In this document: positions 11,812 through 23,116 of the stretch, one piece after another
Layout of the letters: each line of letters opens with the position of its first letter
Position numbering within the stretch: position 1 is the first letter of the stretch
Origin: Candidatus Eiseniibacteriota bacterium
GTDB lineage: Bacteria; Arandabacterota; Arandabacteria; JAGLYR01
Length of the DNA: 23,220 nt
Direction of reading: 5' to 3'
Assembly: GCA_023132135.1 (NCBI GenBank)
Contig: JAGLYR010000049.1
Span: forward strand, 1-23,220
Made by a program: the position numbers and the translations under genes
The notes under the pieces: model-generated
What the model saw: the letters and a program-made list of their open reading frames with translations, nothing else
Databases searched by the model: none
What the model was told of the DNA's origin: nothing

Positions 11812-13836
11812 ATGTCGAACGGGGATCTCAGGCGACGCTTTCTATTGGTGATGGCGCTGCTTCCTATGTGGTTGCATTTGCCGGTGATCGTGAATGCTGC
11901 TCCACCGTCGATGCCCGTGTCGCCGTCCGAATGCCACCGTATGCTGGGTCAGGGTAAGGTGGGGCTGGCGCGAGGACTGGCCGATCGGCCGACCCTCAAG
12001 TCCGGACAGGCCGCTTTCGACGTTCTGCACTATGATTTGGTGCTGAGGGTTGACCCCGCGGACGAGTCCCTGGTGGGTGACATCGGCATCCACGTGGCGT
12101 CGGTCATCGCTTCCCTGGATTCGGTCGTTCTGGATTTCGTGGTGCGCCCGGAAATGACGGTGGACTCCGCGAGCGTGGACGGACAGGCGGCCGGTTTCCG
12201 GTGGGGCGATGATGCCGTGCGCATTGCAATGCCTGCGGGGCTGGCTGCTGGTGAGAGCAGCTGGGTCAGGGTGTGGTACCATGGGCAGCCGGAAACCCCA
12301 ACCGTGGGGTTCGGGTTCGGCGTGACTCCAAGGGGGCATCCCACCATCTGGACTCTGAGCGAGCCGGAGATGGCCCGATTCTGGTGGCCGTGCAAGGATG
12401 CTCCGTCGGACAAGGCTACGGCCACGATCTCGATTCGGGTACCAGAGCCGCTGATGGCCGTCTCCAATGGACTGCTCCTGGAAATCGAGTCCTTGGGAGA
12501 TGGTACCCGAACGTGGCACTGGTCGGAAACCTACCCCATCGCGACGTATCTTGTGTCCCTTGCCATCTGCGAGTACGATGTCTTTGAGGACTCATATGTT
12601 ACAACTTCCGGCGATTCCATGCCTGTCATCTACTATGTATACCCGGAACACCGCTCTCGCGCTGAACGGGATTTCCGTTTCACAGTGGACATGATCGAGT
12701 TCTACGCGTCGGTGTTCGGTGAGTATCCGTTTCTCAGAGAGAAGTACGGAATGGCTGAGTTCCCCTGGGGTGGGGCCATGGAACACCAGACCGTAACCAG
12801 CTATGGCTCGCCCCTGATCACGGGTACGAACATCTACGATTGGATCATTGCGCACGAGCTTGCGCACCAGTGGTGGGGAGATCTCGTAACGCTGGAAACC
12901 TGGGACGACATCTGGCTCAACGAGGGGTTCGCGGTATACTCGGAGGCGCTCTGGGAAGAGCACATTGCTGGTGAGGGCGCGTACCACGCCTACATGGCTG
13001 CCATGGACCGGAAGGTCGGTTTCAGCGGGACTCTCTACGGTCCCAGCGCGGACCCGGATTCAGCGTTCATGGTTCCCTACGTCTACACTGTCTACGACAA
13101 GGGAGCCTGGGTGCTCCACATGCTCCGGCATGTCGTTGGAGACAGCGTGTTTTTCCAGATTCTGCGCGACTACGCGTCGCACACGAGTCATGCCTACCGG
13201 ACAGCCAACACAGTCCAGTTCCAGGCTCTCGCGGAGGATCACCACGGCAGGTCCCTCGACTGGTTCTTCACCAAATGGGTCTACGGCACCGGGCGTCCTG
13301 AGTACGAATACCGGTGGACAACGCGGACGACCGGCGGGCAACATCTGCTGATGCTTCATATCGACCAGGTGCAGACGGCGAGCGGTGTGTTCGAGATGCC
13401 GTTGGACGTGGCGGTTGAGTTCGCAAGTGGGGAGACCACGTTCGTGGTGGTCGACTCATTGGAGTGTCAGGATTTTGAGGTGGTTCTGGAAAAGCGACCG
13501 GTAGCTGTGGTTCTGGATCCGGAAGGCTGGGTATTGAAACGCGCAGTGGAAAGACCGGAGCGGTTTGCACTTTACGGTGTCTGTCCGAATCCATTTCACG
13601 AGACAACGCGTGTGGTGTATGATTTGCACACAACACAAGCGGTAGAGTTTACGATCTATGATGTCACCGGACGGCGGGTGACAAACCTTGTTGATCATGT
13701 CATGTCTCCCGGGCACCACGAGGTCGTATGGGACGGGGGCAACGATCGGGGCGAGCGAGTTGCTCCGGGTGTCTACTTCGGGAAGCTGATCGTGGGAGGA
13801 CGGGAGAACCGGATCCGTCTGGTTTTGATCCGTTAG
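11812..13836 (+). CDS. secreted M1-family zinc aminopeptidase with C-terminal sorting-like domain
   Basis: This is an exported metallo-aminopeptidase of 674 residues. A signal peptide (RRFLLVMALLPMWLHLPVIVNA) is followed by the M1 N-terminal beta domain (about 55-240) and the catalytic domain. The substrate motif GAMEH is at 321-325, and the zinc motif HELAH at 348-352 has its third ligand Glu371 in LNEGFAVY. After the catalytic domain comes a short beta region and then, from about residue 585, a FlgD/T9SS-type C-terminal domain (YGVCPNPFHETTRVVYDL ... IYDVTGRRV ... DGGNDRGERVAPGVYFGKL). Such tails are usual on secreted proteins of FCB-type bacteria. The start follows a purine-rich region with GGGAG. 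It is 20 bases upstream of the PilZ gene. Confidence 0.92.
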   Translation: MSNGDLRRRFLLVMALLPMWLHLPVIVNAAPPSMPVSPSECHRMLGQGKVGLARGLADRPTLKSGQAAFDVLHYDLVLRVDPADESLVGDIGIHVASVIASLDSVVLDFVVRPEMTVDSASVDGQAAGFRWGDDAVRIAMPAGLAAGESSWVRVWYHGQPETPTVGFGFGVTPRGHPTIWTLSEPEMARFWWPCKDAPSDKATATISIRVPEPLMAVSNGLLLEIESLGDGTRTWHWSETYPIATYLVSLAICEYDVFEDSYVTTSGDSMPVIYYVYPEHRSRAERDFRFTVDMIEFYASVFGEYPFLREKYGMAEFPWGGAMEHQTVTSYGSPLITGTNIYDWIIAHELAHQWWGDLVTLETWDDIWLNEGFAVYSEALWEEHIAGEGAYHAYMAAMDRKVGFSGTLYGPSADPDSAFMVPYVYTVYDKGAWVLHMLRHVVGDSVFFQILRDYASHTSHAYRTANTVQFQALAEDHHGRSLDWFFTKWVYGTGRPEYEYRWTTRTTGGQHLLMLHIDQVQTASGVFEMPLDVAVEFASGETTFVVVDSLECQDFEVVLEKRPVAVVLDPEGWVLKRAVERPERFALYGVCPNPFHETTRVVYDLHTTQAVEFTIYDVTGRRVTNLVDHVMSPGHHEVVWDGGNDRGERVAPGVYFGKLIVGGRENRIRLVLIR

Positions 13837-13856: not shown

Positions 13857-14291
13857 ATGCCATCTCGTGAAAAAGAACGGCGTACCAGACCTAGAGTCCA
13901 GGTAGGTCTGGCGGCCCAACTCTCCGATGAATCCGGAGCCACTGGGCTGGCTGCCGAGACGGTCAACGTCTCCGTGGCAGGAGTCTGCTGCCGGGTGCCA
14001 AGACCCGTGGAGCCCCTGACCCGGGTAAAAATCACCCTTCTGGTCCCTGACGTGAAGAGCAAAAAGCACGCGAAATCCGCTGTCGTGTCGACAGAGGGTG
14101 TCGTGGTCCGCACGGAGCTGCTGGAGTCGGAGGCGGGTAAGGAAACATATGAAATCGCGTGCGCATTTACCGGATTGAAGGACAAGGATCTAAAAATCAT
14201 GCAATCATACGTGGACAGTCGGCTGGACCAGACGGCGCCCTCTTCGAAAGGCCGCGGGTCGCAAGGTGCGGGTACGAAGCCGGCCTCCTGA
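13857..14291 (+). CDS. PilZ-domain protein, probable c-di-GMP receptor
   Basis: This is a 144-residue stand-alone PilZ protein. The two c-di-GMP binding elements are visible: an arginine-rich RxxxR segment near the start (RRTRPRVQV, residues 8-16) and the NxSxxG motif in TVNVSVAGVCC. Together they predict real ligand binding. PilZ proteins of this type commonly modulate motility, pili or chemosensory output. The start ATG 13857 has GGAG eight bases upstream; the open frame extends further upstream but there it overlaps the peptidase gene. It lies just before the chemosensory operon, separated from it by 259 bases that hold a sigma-54-like element and a repeat hairpin. Confidence 0.85.
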   Translation: MPSREKERRTRPRVQVGLAAQLSDESGATGLAAETVNVSVAGVCCRVPRPVEPLTRVKITLLVPDVKSKKHAKSAVVSTEGVVVRTELLESEAGKETYEIACAFTGLKDKDLKIMQSYVDSRLDQTAPSSKGRGSQGAGTKPAS

Positions 14292-14418: not shown

Positions 14419-14435
14419 TTGGCTTGCCTCTTGCT
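14419..14435 (+). promoter_or_regulatory. sigma-54-like (-24/-12) promoter for the chemosensory operon
   Basis: The sequence TTGGCTTGCCTCTTGCT has the invariant GG (14421-14422) and GC (14433-14434) ten bases apart, with TGGC, the following G, and TTGCT in place as in the TGGCACG-N4-TTGCW consensus; the central AC is TT. Transcription would begin near 14446, giving a leader of about 105 bases before cheA that includes the repeat hairpin. The operon itself encodes an NtrC-type sigma-54 activator, which makes the match more meaningful. Confidence 0.5.
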
Positions 14436-14492: not shown

Positions 14493-14528
14493 GCCCGCAT
14501 TTCTCACCAGGCGGTGAGAAATGCGGGC
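14493..14528. repeat. palindromic repeat copy 1: perfect 16-bp stem
   Basis: Arms GCCCGCATTTCTCACC (14493-14508) and GGTGAGAAATGCGGGC (14513-14528) are perfectly complementary around the four-base loop AGGC. No T-run follows. The element lies in the cheA leader and covers the upstream in-frame ATG 14521. The arm sequence recurs at 16652-16697 and at the window end, which marks it as a dispersed REP-like element. Confidence 0.85.
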
Positions 14529-14550: not shown

Positions 14551-16146
14551 ATGCAGCCGGAAACACCTGGATCGCAGATCATCGAGCAAATGCGGGGTGA
14601 GTTCCTTGCAGAAGCCGAGGAACTGCTCGACGAGATAAGGGCGGATCTAGCGCTCTTGGGAAGCGAGGCGAACCGCGCGGCGCCGGATCTTCTGTACAAA
14701 GTTCTGAGGGCCGCCCACTCGTTGAAAGGTTCGAGTGGGATGTTCGGACTGGATGATCTGTCCGAGGCGAGTCACTCGTTGGAAGGTATGCTGGAGGATT
14801 TGAAATCGGGCCGGGTGGAGGATGTCGGGGATTTCATCGAGGCGAGTTTGGACCAGGCGGAGATGATGCGGTCCGTTCTCGATGAGGTGATTGGGGCGCA
14901 GGAAACGAGACCCAAGGACGGGGACTCCGATTCCGCGGTGCCTGTGCAGAGGCCTGAAGCCAGCCAATTCCTGAGAGTCGACATGGGCGATCTGGATCAG
15001 GCTCTCAATCTCGTAGGGGATCTGTTTCTTGGTATCGATGCTCTCCGGAATCTGGACAAGTCGGTGGGGCTTGATGGCGAGAAGCGGAGCGGTCGGCGCG
15101 AGCGCATAATCTCGACGCGCAGACGGGGCCGCAAGTTGACCGAGCTGCGGGAGTGTCTCCTCAGCATGCGGATGGTCCCGCTGGCAAGGATTTTTGCTCG
15201 CCTCGTTCCCGCTGTCCGATCTGTAACGCGCGAGACAGGGAAGAAAGCGGCACTGACGATCGAAGGCGGCGAGACACGCTTGGACAAAGGTATGGCGGAG
15301 CGGCTGTCGGATCCGCTGCTCCATCTGCTTCGAAACGCGATTGACCACGGGCTGGAAGAGCCTTCAGAGCGGGAGAAACTGGGCAAGCCGGCGGAGGGAC
15401 GGATATCGGTGTCGGCCAGGCGAGAGGGCAGCGAGGTCGTGATTGAGGTGCAGGACGACGGCCGCGGCGTGGACCTGGGGAAGCTGCTGGAGAAGGCCAG
15501 GGAACGAGGTCTCCTGAATGGTGAAACGGCCCCGTCGGAGCGCCGGATTCTGGATTGTCTGTTTGCTCACGGCGTGACGACGGCGAGCCGGGTGAGCACG
15601 GTGTCGGGGCGAGGCGTCGGCATGGATGTCGTGCGCACCAACGTTGCCCGCCTGAGTGGTACGGTGGCCGTGTCGACAGAGCAAGGCAAGGGGACTAGAG
15701 TATCAATCCGCGTGCCTCCAACGCTGTCTACCATTGATGGTCTTCTCCTTGAGATTGCCGGGCAGATTGTGGTGCTGCCGTTTTACTCCGTGCGGGAAGT
15801 GATACGAATTACGGAGGCGGATCGGCAGCGTGTTGTAGAGAGTGGGAACTTGCCGTTGAGAGACGAGACCATCCGAGCGGCCGCGCTGGCGCCCATTCTC
15901 GGTCTCAATGACGGGGTGCGAGGGGAGGAATTCGCGGTTGTAATGGCGCGCAGATCCGACACGGTGGCTGTGTTGGTTGACGGGCTGGCCGAGCGGGCGG
16001 AAGTTCTGGTGAAACCGCTGGGACCGCGTCTGGATTCGCTGGACAAATTCTCGGGAGTGACCGAACTGGCCGACGGGCGCGTTGCCCCGGTTCTCGATGT
16101 TTCGGCGGTCATGAAGGGGGTGGGGGGTGTTGAAGGACTGTCCTGA
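14551..16146 (+). CDS. cheA: CheA-type chemosensory histidine kinase lacking P2
   Basis: This is the central kinase of a chemosensory array, 531 residues. Domains in order: P1/Hpt with phospho-acceptor His56 in AAHSLKGSSGMFG; P3 dimerisation (about 140-230); P4 ATPase with N-box LLRNAIDHG (Asn262), DDGRGV (302-307) and GRGVGM (353-358); P5 CheW-like domain (about 390-525). Only about 25 residues separate P1 from P3, so the CheY/CheB-docking P2 domain is missing. I chose ATG 14551 (GGGA eight bases upstream) because the earlier ATG 14521 lies inside a 16-bp hairpin arm. A cheW gene overlaps its end by 20 bases. The absence of P2 and of CheY suggests output to another regulator, perhaps the NtrC-type protein downstream. 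Confidence 0.93.
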   Translation: MQPETPGSQIIEQMRGEFLAEAEELLDEIRADLALLGSEANRAAPDLLYKVLRAAHSLKGSSGMFGLDDLSEASHSLEGMLEDLKSGRVEDVGDFIEASLDQAEMMRSVLDEVIGAQETRPKDGDSDSAVPVQRPEASQFLRVDMGDLDQALNLVGDLFLGIDALRNLDKSVGLDGEKRSGRRERIISTRRRGRKLTELRECLLSMRMVPLARIFARLVPAVRSVTRETGKKAALTIEGGETRLDKGMAERLSDPLLHLLRNAIDHGLEEPSEREKLGKPAEGRISVSARREGSEVVIEVQDDGRGVDLGKLLEKARERGLLNGETAPSERRILDCLFAHGVTTASRVSTVSGRGVGMDVVRTNVARLSGTVAVSTEQGKGTRVSIRVPPTLSTIDGLLLEIAGQIVVLPFYSVREVIRITEADRQRVVESGNLPLRDETIRAAALAPILGLNDGVRGEEFAVVMARRSDTVAVLVDGLAERAEVLVKPLGPRLDSLDKFSGVTELADGRVAPVLDVSAVMKGVGGVEGLS

Positions 16147-16651
16147 CAGGTTGGCATTCGGGTCGCCTTCCGGAGGAGTCACGCAGTCGGCGGACGGGAT
16201 GTACGTGATTCTGTCTCTCGGGAAGCAATACTGCGCCATCAGTGCGGAGAATGTGGAGGAGGTGTTGACCCAGGAACCCTTTACCAGGTTTCCGCTGGCG
16301 GGGAAATCCGTCGCAGGGGCCATGTTTTTCCGAGGTGCCTGCGTGACGGTGTATGATCTGGGCTGGATCCTCGCAAGGTGTCCGGTGAAACCCTCACGCT
16401 CCTCCCGGATCATCGTACTGCGGGAGCCCAACCGGGCCTCATTGCTGGTGGAGCGAATCCTGACGCTGATATCGGGCGCCGGCGAACCTATCGACAGTCC
16501 GGATCTTTCCCTCGGGCGGTACGTGAATGGCCAGATCCGATGGCTCGATCGTCTTGTGAAGATAATTGATGTACACGGGTTGCTACGGTTGGAGGCAGAT
16601 CGCGCCGAAGCATTGATGAGGAAGGCGCCTGGCGAGGCGCCTCGACTCTAG
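16127..16651 (+). CDS. cheW: CheW-like coupling protein
   Basis: This protein would link the MCP-like receptor to CheA. The 174 residues contain one CheW domain (about 22-158): [23 protein letters not shown] is the first strand pair and typical CheW opening, followed by [20 protein letters not shown], which corresponds to the conserved G..N.RG..V.V.DL region. The later half ends [17 protein letters not shown]. Start GTG 16127 follows a purine-rich AAGGGGG and overlaps cheA by 20 bases; TTG 16130 is also possible. Its TAG stop forms the first bases of the long palindromic repeat. Confidence 0.85.
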
Positions 16652-16697
16652 CCGGCATTTCTCGCCAGCCTCGTCGCGAGGCTGGCGAGAAATGCGG
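16649..16697. repeat. palindromic repeat copy 2: long hairpin between cheW and the MCP gene
   Basis: Arms 16655-16673 (GCATTTCTCGCCAGCCTCG) and 16677-16695 are perfectly complementary over 19 bp with a three-base loop TCG. Two more C-G pairs (16652-16653 with 16696-16697) extend it past a single bulged G. The outer sequence GCATTTCTCGCC/GGCGAGAAATGC is shared with copy 1. There is no T-run. Within an operon such a hairpin might stabilise the upstream mRNA or reduce downstream expression. Confidence 0.85.
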
Positions 16698-16731
16698 ACC
16701 AAGAACCAAATCGGTAGCAAGGGGGCTGCGC

Positions 16732-18435
16732 ATGACGGGGCACAACTACGGTAACATAGGATTGACCACTCGAGTGGTCGGGCCGGCGGTCTGTGGGGCA
16801 GGCATTCTCCTGTATTTCCACCTCCGCTGGTACGAGGCCGCCCGGGATGGAGGATGGGTGCCGCTATGGTGGTTGATCGTCCTCGCCGGGCTGGCCGGTA
16901 TCTGGACTCTCATCGTCCGTTGGCAGGTGATTGGTCCCATCCGCGGTCTTTCTCTGAGGAGAATCGAAGACCGGGAAGCCGGCGGGGCGTCCGAGCGCGA
17001 TTTTCCTCCGGAGTTCCGGTTTTTGGACGAGGGCCTGCGGGACATCCTGCGGGGTGCTCGCGAGAGCTTGGAGAGCGAGAGGGAATCCGCCAGGACACTG
17101 GAGATACTGACAGCGTCTCTCACAAGTCAGTGGCGGACAATGCGGACCTCGGCGGGGGTGCAGGCGAGATTGCTGGAGGAGGGGCAGGTGCCTCTCATGG
17201 ATGATTGGCTGGAGTGTCTCGGGGACAGTGTGAACAGGCTGGGGGAGTACTTGAATCGTCTTGAGAACGGGACGGGCGAGGTGGCTGGTTTGCTCGAAGG
17301 CGTCATCTGCTCCTGTCGGGAAGGTCGGGCGTCGGCATCGGAATACCTGGTTCGAGGCCGTGAGTTTGCGGGAATGCTGGACGAAGCGGATGGCCGGATT
17401 CGGATCTTCCAGCGGGCAACGGAAACCGCTGCATCGTTGGTCACCAAGGTCAACGACGTGGCGAGGCAGGTAACGTCAAGCTGCCGGGAACTCAAGCATT
17501 CCACGCGGGACCTGAACCGGGTTGCCACTGAGGGTGAGAAAGTCTTGAAGGAAGCCAATGTCCATGCGAGACACACGTCGGAGGCGGTCTTGGAGAGTGC
17601 GGAGAGCGTGCGGAATCTGGGATCGCGCTCTGGGGAAATCGGGAGCGTCGTGGAGGTGATCGAGAGCATAGCGGACGAGACAAACCTCCTGGCGCTCAAT
17701 GCCGCCATTATTGCAGCACAGGCAGGTGAGCATGGGCGGAGCTTCGCCGTTGTGGCGGAGGAGATCCGCGAACTGGCCGAGCGCACGTCCTCTTCGACAA
17801 AGGAAGTGGCGGATCTGGTCAAGAGTGTCCAGGATGGAATCGGGCAGGCAGCCCAGAGTATTGATGAGAGCGCGAAGAAGGTGCGGCAGAGCGCGAACCT
17901 CGGGGCACAGGCGGGAGAAATCTGGGAACAGGTCAGGAAAAGCTCGGAACAGAACGCCAGGTTGGCAGAAGGGATCGTGTCGTCGTCGTCCGAACAATCG
18001 CGGGACGCGGATCGGCTGGGGAGCGCGATGGATGGGGTTGAGGGATACGTCACTGAAATCGCGGAGAAGATCCGCGGACGTCGGAGGGCGGAGGAGGAGG
18101 CGCTTGGTCGGTTGAGCGCTCTGGAGTCCTCACTGCAGAGCGTGAGTTCACAGGAAGGACGAATCTCGTCCGTTGTTTCCGGATTGGAGGAAGAGGTGGG
18201 AGAGGCAGGTGTGCTTCTGGCCGAGATGGGCACGTGGTGCGCGCGCGGGAAATCTACATCGGCGGAAGCCAGGGGACAACTGGGTAATTTGGAGAGCCAG
18301 ATACAGAAGCAGTTGAGGCTCCTCGAGACACAGGGTGAAACCCTGCGGGTGCGCTCCGCCCGAGCAAATCCGCCTCATGACCTGAACTGGGAAGCAACGA
18401 AGGTATCCAGCACTGACACGGGAATAGACGTGTGA
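16732..18435 (+). CDS. membrane-anchored MCP-like chemoreceptor without a clear sensor domain
   Basis: The 567-residue protein has two hydrophobic segments near the N-terminus (about 14-33 and 42-63) separated by only about eight residues, so almost nothing reaches the periplasm. The remainder is a long cytoplasmic coiled coil. The kinase-contacting hairpin tip is clear near residues 306-350: [20 protein letters not shown], then [21 protein letters not shown] canonical HAMP domain is not obvious after TM2. ATG 16732 follows AAGGGGG. It is preceded by cheW and overlaps the next small gene by four bases (GTGA). It may sense membrane state or a cytoplasmic partner; this is inference. Confidence 0.88.
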
Positions 18436-18710
18436 AACTCAAGTGCATTGTTGAGATGGCCAGAGCACTTCTCGGACGTCTGGTTGAGAGATCAGGGCGT
18501 AGAGACGCCGCCCGCTGTGCCGTGCGGCGGGATCTGGATGGCGGGCCGGTACTTCCCTGCGACTTGCAGGTCGGGGCCGGGACCAGAGCACCGGATCAGG
18601 CCAGGCAGGCGCGCTGGATACGGGCGCGGCTCCAAGCCGGATACTACGACGAGCCGGAGGTCAGGGCTAAGATCGTGGGAGCTTTGATGGAGAGTCTCTG
18701 GCTGAAATAG
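18432..18710 (+). CDS. small protein, possibly FlgM-like anti-sigma factor
   Basis: The 92-residue product has a basic, disordered-looking N-terminal half and a helical C-terminus, [20 protein letters not shown] followed by [14 protein letters not shown]. This resembles the C-terminal sigma-28-binding region of FlgM (the I..A...G.Y...P..VA..L pattern). If correct, it would hold the FliA/WhiG-type sigma factor encoded 2.2 kb downstream. GTG 18432 overlaps the MCP stop by four bases, which supports it being a real, coupled gene. The N-terminal part is not recognisable, and a different helical regulator remains possible. Confidence 0.55.
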
Positions 18711-18729
18711 CAGTGCGCTGGATTTGAGG

Positions 18730-18759
18730 TTGCCGGGAGGGGTGGGGCGGTGGTATAGT
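18730..18759 (+). promoter_or_regulatory. possible promoter giving a leaderless regulator mRNA
   Basis: TTGCCG (18730-18735) and TATAGT (18754-18759) are 18 bases apart. A start 7-10 bases after the -10 box would fall at 18766-18769, on or next to the ATG of the NtrC-type gene, which has no good Shine-Dalgarno sequence at the usual distance. A leaderless transcript is therefore possible. Confidence 0.35.
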
Positions 18760-18768
18760 GCTTCAGAC

Positions 18769-20154
18769 ATGAGAATCCTTATAGTCGATGACGAGAAGAA
18801 TCTGAGGAGTTCCTTGACCACCTCGCTGGGCGGGGGTGGCTTCGACGTGCTGGAAGCAGACACGGGCGGGGATGCCGTGGAAAGCGTCCGGCGTGAGTCT
18901 CCCGAGTTGGTTCTCCTGGATACCCGGCTCCCGGATATGGATGGACTGGAGGTGCTCAGGCAGATCCGGCGGATCGACCGCGACGTGTTGGTAATCGTGA
19001 CCACGGCAGATGGGGGCGTCGACTGCGCTGTGGAGGCAATGAAGCTGGGGGCCATGAACTGCATCCCGAAGCCCTACGACCTGGAGCGGATCGGGTCTCT
19101 TGTGGGGCATGCCGCGGAGAGCGTGCGCCTCAGGCAAGAGGCGCGACATGCTCAGCATCTGAAGGTCGGTCATCGTGAGTCTGACCGCCTTGTGCTGGGC
19201 AACAGCCGGAGCATGCTCAGCATTGTCGAGATCATTGAGAAAGTGGCCGCCAGCAAAGCCTCCACTATCCTGATCGAGGGCGAGAACGGGACGGGGAAGG
19301 AACTGGTGGCGAAGGCGATTCACTTCCTGAGCCGTGACCGGAACGGTCCGTGGGTGGACGTGAACGTTGCCAATCTCCCGGAGAACCTGATCGAGAGCGA
19401 GCTGTTCGGGCATGAGAAGGGGGCCTTTACCGACGCCAGGGCAAGGAAGCGGGGGCTCGCGGAGATTGCGGCTGGGGGCACGTTGTTCCTGGACGAGATC
19501 GGTGAGATGCCTCTACATCTTCAGGCGAAGATCCTGAAGGTCATCGAGAGCAAGATATTCCGGCGCTTGGGTGGGGTTGTGGATCTGCGAGTTGATGCCC
19601 GGATCATTGCCGCAACCAACCGGGATCTGAGGAAGCTGGCGAGCGATGGCGGGTTCAGGGAGGATCTCTATTTCAGGTTGCAGGTGATTCCTATTCGGGT
19701 ACCCCCGCTGAGGGAAAGAGTGTCGGACATTCTCCTTCTGGCGCAGTTCTTCGTGGAGCAGTTCAACCGGGAGCTGTCAAAGAATGTGAAGGGGTTTTCG
19801 GCTGAAGCTGGGGCGCTCCTGCTCCGCTACGCGTGGCCTGGGAACGTTCGGGAACTCCGCAATGTGATCGAAAGGATCATGATCCTCGAGGCCCACGAGC
19901 TCATTCTGGCCGAGCACCTGCCGGCCGAGATCCTGGTGCGAGGGGAGTGGGTGGGGACAGGGCAGATACCGACCGGGATGGAGACGCCTGCCTTTGCTGC
20001 CGTACCTCTGAGCACAGTTGAGAGATATCACATTCTGGAGACTCTGGTTTGGGCGCAGGGGAATAAGACGAAGGCTTCCAAGGCCCTCGGGATTTCAAGG
20101 CAGACGCTCAGAGAAAAACTCAAGCAGTATGAAAAGAACGGGCAAACCGTGTGA
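18769..20154 (+). CDS. NtrC-type sigma-54-dependent response regulator
   Basis: This 461-residue transcription activator has a receiver domain with acidic pair Asp7-Asp8, phospho-site Asp51 (VLLDTRLPDMDGL) and Lys101. The AAA+ domain carries Walker A GENGTGKE (171-178), the sigma-54 contact loop GAFTDA (218-223, a variant of GAFTGA), Walker B TLFLDEIGEM (238-247), arginine fingers in PPLRERVSD and sensor II GNVREL (358-363). A Fis-type helix-turn-helix closes the protein (about 421-455, NKTKASKALGISRQTLREKL). ATG 18769 matches the usual MRILIVDDE start. It ends the chemosensory operon and is followed by an intrinsic terminator. CheA is the nearest candidate kinase; the hybrid kinase 1.7 kb downstream is another. 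Confidence 0.95.
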   Translation: MRILIVDDEKNLRSSLTTSLGGGGFDVLEADTGGDAVESVRRESPELVLLDTRLPDMDGLEVLRQIRRIDRDVLVIVTTADGGVDCAVEAMKLGAMNCIPKPYDLERIGSLVGHAAESVRLRQEARHAQHLKVGHRESDRLVLGNSRSMLSIVEIIEKVAASKASTILIEGENGTGKELVAKAIHFLSRDRNGPWVDVNVANLPENLIESELFGHEKGAFTDARARKRGLAEIAAGGTLFLDEIGEMPLHLQAKILKVIESKIFRRLGGVVDLRVDARIIAATNRDLRKLASDGGFREDLYFRLQVIPIRVPPLRERVSDILLLAQFFVEQFNRELSKNVKGFSAEAGALLLRYAWPGNVRELRNVIERIMILEAHELILAEHLPAEILVRGEWVGTGQIPTGMETPAFAAVPLSTVERYHILETLVWAQGNKTKASKALGISRQTLREKLKQYEKNGQTV

Positions 20155-20220: not shown

Positions 20221-20256
20221 AAGCGGTGGCAGGAAAATTGCCACCGCTTGTTTTTT
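20221..20256 (+). terminator. intrinsic terminator of the chemosensory operon
   Basis: Perfect 11-bp arms AAGCGGTGGCA (20221-20231) and TGCCACCGCTT (20239-20249) surround the loop GGAAAAT and are followed by GTTTTTT. This is the clearest rho-independent terminator in the window, 67 bases after the NtrC-type gene. Confidence 0.9.
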
Positions 20257-20889: not shown

Positions 20890-21840
20890 ATGGCGGAACC
20901 TCTTCTCAGGTCCGAGGAAAGCGGTGGAGCGTACGGGTACGGTTGTGGGGATTCTGCGATCCCGACGGAGGAGGCTTGGCGAAGGTACAAACATCGGGGA
21001 GATCCCATGGCACGGGATCAACTGGTTTTGGAGTACATACGTCTCGCCAAGTACGTGGCGGGTCGGCTGGCCATCGGACTCCCTCCAACGGTGCAGATTG
21101 ATGATCTGATCAGTTCCGGCATCCTGGGCCTGATGGACGCCATCGAGAAATATGATCCCAAGCGGGATACGAAATTCGAGACGTACGCGATGACACGGAT
21201 CCGGGGAGCCATGCTCGACGAGCTTCGAGCCTTGGATTGGGTGCCACGCTCGACTCGGCGCAAGGCGCGGCTTCTGGAAGACGCCTACGCTGGCCTGGAA
21301 GCGCAGCTGGGGCGTTCTGCTACGGACCAGGAAGTCAGTTCGCACCTGAAGATCTCGACGAGAATCCTCCAAGAAATGGTGGCCGAGATCAGTGTGTCCT
21401 CGCTACTGTCTCTTGACGGGTTCATGATGGCGGGGAGTGGCGAGGAGGTATCCCGACTGATTGACCATTTCAAAGACACAGAGGCGCCAAGTCCCTCTGC
21501 GCACATTGAAGTGGAAGAGGTGAAAGATATCCTCGGCGATGCGATCGGCAATCTTCCCAGGAGGGAGAAAGAAGTTGTTTCCCTCTATTACTTCGAAGAG
21601 ATGACCATGAAGGAAATCGGGGGCATCCTGGGCGTTTCGGAATCGCGGGTGTGCCAGATTCACACAAAAGCCATTCTGAGGCTCCGGGCTCGACTGCGCA
21701 GCAACACCGAGGCCTTGGCGAAAGTCTTTGCCGAGGGCAGCCTGGGCAAGGAGTACAAGGGAGTGCGGGGCAGGACTCCGCAGGCGTCGTATTCGCGGAC
21801 TGGCGTAAATGCGGGATGCCCGCTCGCGACTGTCCAGTAG
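20890..21840 (+). CDS. FliA/WhiG-family (sigma-28-like) RNA polymerase sigma factor
   Basis: This is an alternative sigma factor of the sigma-70 group 3 type, 316 residues. Region 2 is clear (LVLEYIRLAKYVAGRLAIGL, DDLISSGILGLMDAIEKYDP, KFETYAMTRIRGAMLDELRA), followed by the family-specific LDWVPRSTRRKAR (115-127), region 3 (GLEAQLGRSATDQEVSSHL) and region 4 (LPRREKEVVSLYYFEEMTMK, then EIGGILGVSESRVCQIHTKA). FliA is usually about 240-260 residues; here there is an extra N-terminal stretch of about 25 and a tail of some 45 residues after region 4. The tail's last codons overlap a sequence resembling the palindromic repeat arm. It may control motility or pilus genes. The hybrid kinase gene follows after 43 bases. 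Confidence 0.93.
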   Translation: MAEPLLRSEESGGAYGYGCGDSAIPTEEAWRRYKHRGDPMARDQLVLEYIRLAKYVAGRLAIGLPPTVQIDDLISSGILGLMDAIEKYDPKRDTKFETYAMTRIRGAMLDELRALDWVPRSTRRKARLLEDAYAGLEAQLGRSATDQEVSSHLKISTRILQEMVAEISVSSLLSLDGFMMAGSGEEVSRLIDHFKDTEAPSPSAHIEVEEVKDILGDAIGNLPRREKEVVSLYYFEEMTMKEIGGILGVSESRVCQIHTKAILRLRARLRSNTEALAKVFAEGSLGKEYKGVRGRTPQASYSRTGVNAGCPLATVQ

Positions 21841-21883
21841 ACAATCTGCGGCAGCGATTGCGCAAAGGTCCCGGAGGGAAGCA

Positions 21884-23116
21884 ATGACGGATAGCGAAAA
21901 GGACACGTGCTCAGGCACGGCTTGCCTGGCGGAGGGAACACACCGAGCGGTCGCCGAGAAGCCGCAATCCGAGGAGAAGGACAGTATCTGGAAGGAGAGA
22001 ATCCTCGTCGTTGATGATGAGGAACGTGTCTGCCAGACGCTGGAGGAGTTCCTGACGCTCCGAGGCTATCTGGTGGACATCGCGTCAGGCGGTCCTGAAG
22101 CCATGAAAATGATGGAGGAAAAGGTCTACGCGTTGATGCTGACCGATCTCATGATGCCGCGCATGAATGGCATGGAGCTGATGGAGCAAGCGAAGGATCT
22201 GGACTCCGATCTGATGGTCGTGATTATCACGGGCTTTGGGACCATCGAGACCGCGGTCCAGGCGCTCAAGCATGGGGCCTACGACTATGTTCTGAAACCC
22301 TTCTCCCTGATGGAAATCGAACGAACCGTGGAACGGGCCCTTGAGAAACGCCGCCTGACCCACGAGAATCTCCAACTGATTGAGCTGAATCGCCGTCTGC
22401 GGGAGATCGATAGTCTCAAATCCGATTTGCTGGGGATCGTCTCGCACGAATTCCGGACCCCGCTCACGAGTATCAAGGGATACGTGTCGCTGATGCTGGG
22501 CGGCGGTCTCGGAGAAGTGTCCGAGCCGCAGAGGGAGGCTCTCGATGCGGTTGAGGAGAACACACGGAGGCTCGAGAAACTGGTGGACAACATCCTGATT
22601 CTGGCCGAAGTGGGGAGTGGTACTGCGGATTTGCGGATTCAGGAGGTGGATGTGGGGGCTGTTCTGGAGGAGGGACTGCGCGCGTGTGCGATGGACATCA
22701 AAGCCAACGACATCGAGGTCTCGACCTTCGTTGAACCGGACCTGCCTGTCGTGCAAGGAGATTCCGAGAAACTGGCTGTGGTTGTCGGGAACACCATTGA
22801 CAACGCTGTCAAGTTCCGCTCCGAGAGAGCGACCATATCTGTCCGCGCTGTGGCCAAGAGTTACAAGGGCGATGGCTGGGTTGATCTGGTGATCACCGAC
22901 AACGGAATCGGGATCGGGGAGCAGGACCTGAACAACATATTCGGGAATTTCTTCCAGGCAGACATGACCGCTACGCGCCGTATCGGAGGGGTTGGGCTCG
23001 GCCTGTGTGTGGTCCGCGAGGTCATCCGTTGCCATGGGGGGACCATCCGGGTCCACAGCAAGCTGGGCGAAGGCACTGAGGTTACCATTTCTCTCCGCAC
23101 GCACACCATCCAGTAG
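21884..23116 (+). CDS. soluble hybrid: receiver domain fused to histidine kinase
   Basis: The 410-residue protein has no membrane segments. After a polar N-terminus comes a receiver domain (about 38-155; acidic pair Asp44-Asp45, phospho-site Asp88 in LTDLMMPRMNGM, Lys138). A coiled linker leads to HisKA with His188 in IVSHEFRTPLTSIKGY, and a HATPase with N-box NTIDNAVKF (303-311), G1 DNGIGIG (339-345) and G2 GVGLGL (369-374). The N-terminal receiver implies that the kinase is controlled by another kinase in a phosphorelay. ATG 21884 has GGAGG six bases upstream; the open frame runs further upstream into the sigma gene. Its output partner is not adjacent. Confidence 0.94.
   Translation: MTDSEKDTCSGTACLAEGTHRAVAEKPQSEEKDSIWKERILVVDDEERVCQTLEEFLTLRGYLVDIASGGPEAMKMMEEKVYALMLTDLMMPRMNGMELMEQAKDLDSDLMVVIITGFGTIETAVQALKHGAYDYVLKPFSLMEIERTVERALEKRRLTHENLQLIELNRRLREIDSLKSDLLGIVSHEFRTPLTSIKGYVSLMLGGGLGEVSEPQREALDAVEENTRRLEKLVDNILILAEVGSGTADLRIQEVDVGAVLEEGLRACAMDIKANDIEVSTFVEPDLPVVQGDSEKLAVVVGNTIDNAVKFRSERATISVRAVAKSYKGDGWVDLVITDNGIGIGEQDLNNIFGNFFQADMTATRRIGGVGLGLCVVREVIRCHGGTIRVHSKLGEGTEVTISLRTHTIQ

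Follow-up and report, generated by a model that had tools for sequence, protein, structure and literature searches.

The stretch of DNA analysed here, called the window, is one whole contig of 23,220 nucleotides (C290; JAGLYR010000049.1) from the assembly of a Candidatus Eiseniibacteriota bacterium (G000; GCA_023132135.1; 3.4 Mb, 96% complete, 345 contigs). It carries a chemosensory operon in which five forward-strand genes follow one another: those for the kinase CheA (14551..16146), the coupling protein CheW (16127..16651), a methyl-accepting chemotaxis protein (MCP; 16732..18435), a small FlgM-like protein (18432..18710) and an NtrC-type sigma-54 activator (18769..20154). The operon ends at a strong intrinsic terminator on the same strand (20221..20249; 12-bp stem and a GTTTTTTG tail). 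This five-gene arrangement had been proposed in an earlier sequence-only reading of positions 14551 to 20154 and is borne out by Pfam and NCBIfam models and by the sequence. Its limits were drawn too narrowly, however, for the conserved locus is larger than five genes and also contains, all on the forward strand, a gene for a PilZ-domain protein (13857..14291), a sigma-54-type site 5′ of cheA, a gene for a FliA/WhiG-type sigma factor, FliA2 (20890..21840), and a gene for a REC-HisKA-HATPase histidine kinase (REC-HK; 21809..23116).

The comparison sample consisted of eight draft genomes for the class, the same eight standing for the phylum. A search of related genomes recovered the gene order, whole or in part, in five others of the class (G002, G003, G004, G005 and G006; hereafter the relatives). 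In G003 and G004, which belong to another family of the class, the order is PilZ, CheA with a fused CheW, MCP, PilB, STAS, CsrA, a small protein, NtrC, FliA, REC/HK and a further REC protein; G002, G005 and G006 hold portions of the locus as far as their contigs reach. PilB, STAS and CsrA are missing from the window locus, whereas PilZ, the small protein, NtrC, FliA and REC/HK are retained in unchanged order. The PilB of the relatives' operon is complete, with T2SSE plus MshEN. The window NtrC and those of four relatives form one clade (support 100/99), and the PilZ gene lies immediately 5′ of cheA in G003, G004 and G005 as well. The PilZ-domain protein of the window (Pfam PilZ, E 5e-7; RxxxR and NxSxxG kept) likely binds cyclic di-GMP (c-di-GMP). 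No published description of the locus was found in the open-access literature, a search that left most subscription papers outside.

The window encodes a complete chemosensory core, namely an MCP signalling domain, CheW, and a CheA with the P1 histidine and the P4 kinase. CheA is made up of P1 (Hpt, His56), a diverged and weakly matched P3, the P4 HATPase kinase and P5 (CheW), as recognised by Pfam and NCBIfam. Its P1–P3 linker is only ∼37 residues long and therefore leaves no room for P2, a domain that E. coli CheA does show in the identical scan. The absence of P2 thus holds as first described, but its use as a sign that CheY is missing does not: most of eight P2-less CheAs that were checked lie in clusters with CheY, and the argument was discarded. 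A scan of genome contigs for close homologues of the CheA gave only CheAs of 28–38% identity from many phyla, which serve as background only. The cheW gene (Pfam CheW, E 2e-16) overlaps cheA by 20 bp; in the relatives CheW is fused onto the C-terminus of CheA, which thereby contains two CheW domains. The MCP has two N-terminal transmembrane helices and almost no periplasmic part. A cysteine-rich CW-type C-terminus is present on the relatives' MCP (L112:14533-16179, L176:353-2092) and absent from that of the window.

The response regulator consists of a receiver with Asp51 (REC), an AAA+ domain with a GAFTDA loop, and a Fis-type helix-turn-helix (HTH_8). The receiver is intact, with the acidic pair DD, D51, T and K. 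GAFTDA is listed as a tolerated variant of GAFTGA and is found in DVU2106 of D. vulgaris (PMC4641369). With REC, an AAA+ domain bearing a GAFTGA-type loop, a Fis HTH and RpoN in the genome (RpoN was found in 8/8 genomes), the protein has the features of an NtrC-type sigma-54 activator.

The 92-residue product of the gene between mcp (4-bp overlap) and ntrC is a putative anti-sigma-28 protein. No Pfam or NCBIfam model matched it, no FlgM match was obtained by these models (PF04316/TIGR03824 over cut-off), BLASTP or PDB searches, and BLASTP against the flagellar FlgM encoded on contig C337 of the same genome returned nothing. In a shuffle test against that FlgM, z was 9.7 for the window protein and 4.0–9.3 for the relatives' proteins, and hhalign to it gave E 2e-5 and a probability of 77% over 34 columns; the C337 FlgM is itself weak against FlgM models (E 0.004–0.007, below cut-off). 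Because the link consists of the shuffle test and hhalign to this one FlgM, with no HMM match, the protein is termed FlgM-like rather than FlgM. The relatives' small proteins (76–86 residues) share a motif ARxRxCSGYYDS and, like that of the window, are encoded immediately 5′ of ntrC. FliA2 scores 266 bits against TIGR02479 (cut-off 189.6), which places it in the FliA/WhiG family. Its identity is 50% to the relatives' che-locus FliA versus 37–39% to their flagellar FliA, and it would accordingly be the orthologue of the former sigma factor and not of the latter. The FlgM-like protein had been presented as an isolated new component; with FliA2 encoded next door, it looks instead like one half of an anti-sigma/sigma-28 pair. 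No second FliA above cut-off was found in the window's genome, where the flagellar contig stops just past flhA and a second FliA could fall in a gap.

Promoter-like sites accompany these genes. The sigma-54-type −24/−12 site TGGCTTGCCTCTTGCT (14420..14435, forward strand), 131 bp 5′ of the cheA ATG, is the sole exact TGGCN7TTGCW match in the window (0.26 expected), and an equally high score was reached in 3 of 132 background upstream regions. Another sigma-54 match, at 20226, was rejected since it is the terminator stem. In the five relatives, spanning three genera, a GG-N10-GC site is located 75–77 bp 5′ of fliA2 (in G002 with the start placed 33 bp 3′ of where it was called), with scores matched by few of the 132 background regions. 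Sigma-28-type sites with diverged spacers were observed 5′ of STAS in four relatives (TTCAG-N15-GNCGAT) and 5′ of mcp in two (TAAG-N16-GCCGATAA). Four relatives have sigma-28-like matches inside ntrC, at its 3′ end; these were judged to reflect coding conservation and not promoters. Genome-wide, the sigma-28 pattern outnumbers a control pattern in G002 (9 vs 1), G003 (13 vs 1) and G006 (7 vs 1). Genes with a non-coding match 5′ of them encode a protein bearing a pilin-type N-methylation motif and a ComEA-like helix-hairpin-helix protein (both in G002), a TackOD1-GGDEF cyclase, PAS and HisKA sensor proteins and a HEAT-repeat protein. The TackOD1-GGDEF gene lies at L204:1572-2717; the HEAT-repeat gene (L211 and L203) stands behind such promoters in two genera. 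G003 and G004 also have a small lipoprotein-like gene downstream of the che locus (L156:8170-8601, L113:18223-18654), its product having a fibronectin-type fold by eye. A strong sigma-54-type site, RTGGTATRSTTCTTGCA, lies 5′ of it, and the gene is a possible direct NtrC target; a comparable site occurs in G006 (L177 near 8533).

A whole-genome search showed that the window encodes the sole CheA and the sole MCP of its genome and that CheW domains occur only at cheA and cheW. CheY, CheB and CheR are all missing from the window, as had been stated, but absence from the genome, as the sequence-only reading took it, does not hold for CheR, which is encoded on contig C93 beside an HDOD-like gene (L107:597-2366). 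This CheR is without any CheB in the genome. Among the eight genomes CheR exceeds the cut-off in G000 only and CheB was found in none, although absences in the class carry some risk given eight draft genomes. The CheR/CheB adaptation pair of E. coli/B. subtilis-type flagellar chemotaxis is thus incomplete.

The organism is flagellated. Contig C79 carries a flagellar cluster (fliG, fliM, fliN, fliI, fliP, flhB, flhA and others), at the head of which lie genes for a PAS kinase and a separate NtrC (GAFTGA). On C337 are motA, motB-like genes, flgM, fliD, fliS, flagellin, csrA and fliW. The gene names on both contigs were read from the translations, except for FliG, FliM, FliN and FlgM, which were scanned with models. 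At least four of the six genomes with the locus are flagellated. Loss of flagella in relatives, suggested by the missing FliG in G004 and G002, was ruled out by flagellar genes on other contigs. In E. coli, the N-terminal segment of FliM docks CheY. In the window's genome, G002 and G003, FliM starts only at model position 26–27, positions 1–25 being missing (L109:17186-18064, L153:8933-9868, L175:1312-2238; three genomes from two families of the class). Only 1–4 in-frame codons lie upstream, so the CheY-docking N-terminus is missing, unlike in E. coli/B. subtilis-type flagellar chemotaxis, and no EIDALL-like motif occurs in the flagellar loci examined. FliN of the window's genome has an acidic N-terminal extension of ∼130 residues. 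The che and flagellar loci examined contain no gene that could be recognised as cheY. The genome encodes 43 receiver domains, several of them stand-alone and including receivers of 116–148 residues; eight stand-alone receivers scanned with NCBIfam gave PhoB, PleD, RpaB or NtrC models as top matches, and one could still be CheY. A separate NtrC belongs to the flagellar loci, and in the relatives a separate FliA does too. Why a flagellated lineage retains CheA but neither CheB nor the CheY-docking end of FliM is puzzling.

Taken together, the output of the array is probably transcription, a conclusion supported by the conserved adjacency to NtrC, the presence of RpoN, the sigma-54-type sites, the absence of CheB and the truncation of FliM. 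The sequence-only reading had likewise favoured transcription over swimming; the first part is supported, and the exclusion of swimming is weakened by the flagella and by CheR. FliM truncation and the lack of a recognised CheY support its conclusion better than its P2 argument did. We consider it reasonably probable that the locus is a clade-specific chemosensory system with gene expression as its output, acting through the sigma-54 activator and FliA2. The window's organism would then probably use its only chemosensory array to switch on genes via two stacked specialised sigma factors and not to steer swimming in the classical manner, as would its distant relatives. This would be a new form of chemosensory control of gene expression, whose mechanism we infer from gene anatomy and promoter-like sites. 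In this mechanism, one receptor–CheW–CheA array, upstream of which a c-di-GMP-type PilZ protein is encoded, would determine how active the neighbouring sigma-54 activator is, reaching it via the activator's own receiver in the window's organism or via the REC-HK of the locus. The activator would open sigma-54 promoters, that of its own operon in the window (the site 5′ of cheA) and that of fliA2 in the relatives. FliA2, a sigma-28-family factor kept in check by the FlgM-like protein that the operon encodes, would transcribe mcp and/or the STAS-csrA-flgM′-ntrC genes (flgM′ encoding the FlgM-like protein), and its regulon in the relatives may include sensor kinases, a diguanylate cyclase, a pilin-like protein and a ComEA-like protein. 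The sites suggest a reciprocal sigma-54/sigma-28 loop, in which NtrC and sigma-54 drive FliA2, FliA2 drives the receptor and/or the flgM′-ntrC operon, and FlgM′ restrains FliA2. More tentatively, at somewhat less than even confidence, we propose the full form of this scheme: in a flagellated lineage whose motor is without the CheY-docking peptide, the sole array would stand at the head of a dedicated cascade from sigma-54 to sigma-28, equipped with a private anti-sigma factor and a reciprocal promoter loop, receptor state would set sigma-factor activity and not motor bias, and relatives with pseudo-receivers would use a route not yet described.

Several observations weigh against a transcriptional output through FliA2. 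With motAB, flgM, fliD, flagellin and CheR present, some link to swimming is possible, and several single-domain receivers could serve as CheY. The tree position of the window FliA2 is weakly supported, and in G002 and G003 FliA2 and the flagellar FliA may share promoters. The window fliA2 is preceded only by an off-spaced GG-N11-GC, and the window has no sigma-28-type site close to the locus. Neither G004 nor the window's genome shows an excess of the sigma-28 pattern (2 vs 1 for the control in the latter), and about one-third of the matches to this pattern fall inside open reading frames. An unlikely alternative is ordinary flagellar chemotaxis with scattered genes, in which CheY would be a stand-alone receiver, CheR would act from its other contig, and NtrC and FliA2 would merely time flagellar expression. 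Flagellar, mot and cheR genes, the flagellated state of most locus-bearing genomes, the short receivers, and the lack of a second FliA over cut-off in G000, by which FliA2 may serve the flagellum, all agree with it. It is opposed by the FliM N-terminus absent in three genomes, by CheB in 0/8 and CheR over cut-off in 1/8 genomes, by the want of a CheY in the flagellar or che loci examined, by the PhoB/PleD/RpaB/NtrC-like character of the eight scanned receivers, and by the separate NtrC and, in relatives, FliA of the flagellar loci. Less probable again is a type IV pilus-directed system of the Pil-Chp kind with the transcriptional genes secondary; the complete PilB in the relatives' operon, the G002 pilin and ComEA genes behind sigma-28-type sites and the upstream PilZ speak for it, but the window locus has no PilB, no PilG/PilH-type CheY is present in the locus, and NtrC and FliA2 are conserved where PilB is not.

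Within the preferred reading of an array that controls transcription, the recipient of the phosphate is a separate matter. The sequence-only reading had CheA phosphorylate Asp51 of the regulator, with no intermediate. Every outgroup has a canonical receiver (acidic pair, D51, T/S, K), as the window does, so that the NtrC from which these proteins descend could be phosphorylated; cheA and ntrC share an operon, and that operon has no sensor histidine kinase with its own input domain. The NtrC orthologues of four relatives, however, have lost the acidic pair and Thr; these pseudo-receivers are unlikely to be ordinary phospho-acceptors, and the CheA-to-NtrC step cannot be identical everywhere. HisKA kinases are the usual partners of NtrC-type receivers, and REC-HK, with a second intact receiver, is encoded next door; che-linked NtrCs of Zixibacteria adjoin a histidine kinase gene, and in M. 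xanthus it is CrdS that acts as kinase and, in the published model, the Che3 system as phosphatase (PMC3510030). Direct transfer may operate in the window's lineage, but from these receivers it is not a conserved feature of the locus, and we regard Asp51 as a possible though doubtful target. The rival phospho-acceptor is REC-HK itself: CheA would phosphorylate its receiver, and its kinase would act on NtrC or, in the relatives, on the third REC protein. A REC-HK with an intact receiver occupies the same position in window and relatives, its retention alongside a degenerating NtrC receiver would be accounted for, and CheA3 of Rhodospirillum centenum phosphorylates the receiver of the kinase CheS3 (PMC3868531). 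This relay is nevertheless the less likely of the two routes and has a fairly low probability. The window REC-HK sits past the terminator alongside fliA2, and the degenerate NtrC receiver of the relatives would not be a target of the kinase either.

Two perfect palindromes with a common core, GCATTTCTC..GAGAAATGC, flank cheA-cheW (14497-14524 and 16655-16695), the second filling most of the 80-bp gap between cheW and mcp. The 9-mer occurs 10 times in 140 kb of the window's genome, where ∼1 is expected, and a single time across the relatives' loci searched; the palindromes are therefore likely a lineage-specific repeat family. The gene at 11812-13836 encodes an M1-type peptidase whose C-terminal domain resembles a secretion tail, a reading made by eye only. 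Rfam gave no match in the window.

Only a few chemosensory arrays are known to control transcription, and the wiring differs in every one. If the scheme proposed here is true, a conserved locus that couples an array to a sigma-54 activator and to a sigma-28/anti-sigma pair of its own would offer a compact model for the rewiring of chemotaxis parts to gene expression. The parallel drawn earlier with Myxococcus xanthus Che3/CrdA/CrdS holds in that a chemosensory system is tied to a sigma-54 activator with gene expression as output, but not in mechanism, as CrdA is phosphorylated by CrdS with Che3 as the phosphatase in the published model, and the part of that source consulted describes no FliA/FlgM pair (PMC3510030). 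The R. centenum Che3 system (CheA3-CheS3-CheY3) is likewise a Che-like cascade with an extra REC-containing kinase and controls development, not chemotaxis, but it ends at the single-domain CheY3, and the abstract names neither a sigma-54 activator nor a sigma-28 factor (PMC3868531). Clusters of the Zixibacteria/Ignavibacteria type (CheR-CheY-CheY-CheA-CheB with a histidine kinase and NtrC; L019-L023, L027, L035, L061, L074) share the P2-less CheA and a nearby NtrC, but have the full CheR/CheB/CheY set and no FliA or FlgM-like gene, and the tree does not place their NtrCs as a demonstrated sister to that of the window. In the Zixibacterial clusters L019, L020, L027 and L061, which contain histidine kinase–NtrC pairs, the NtrC also carries GAFTDA in place of GAFTGA, as do most Zixibacterial members. 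The flagellar sigma-54/sigma-28 hierarchy (FlrBC/FleSR, FliA, FlgM) has the same order of an NtrC-type activator leading to a FliA-type sigma factor with a FlgM-type anti-sigma factor; it differs in that a flagellar NtrC (GAFTGA), a flagellar FlgM and, in the relatives, a flagellar FliA exist separately, and in that CheA stands at the head of the che locus.

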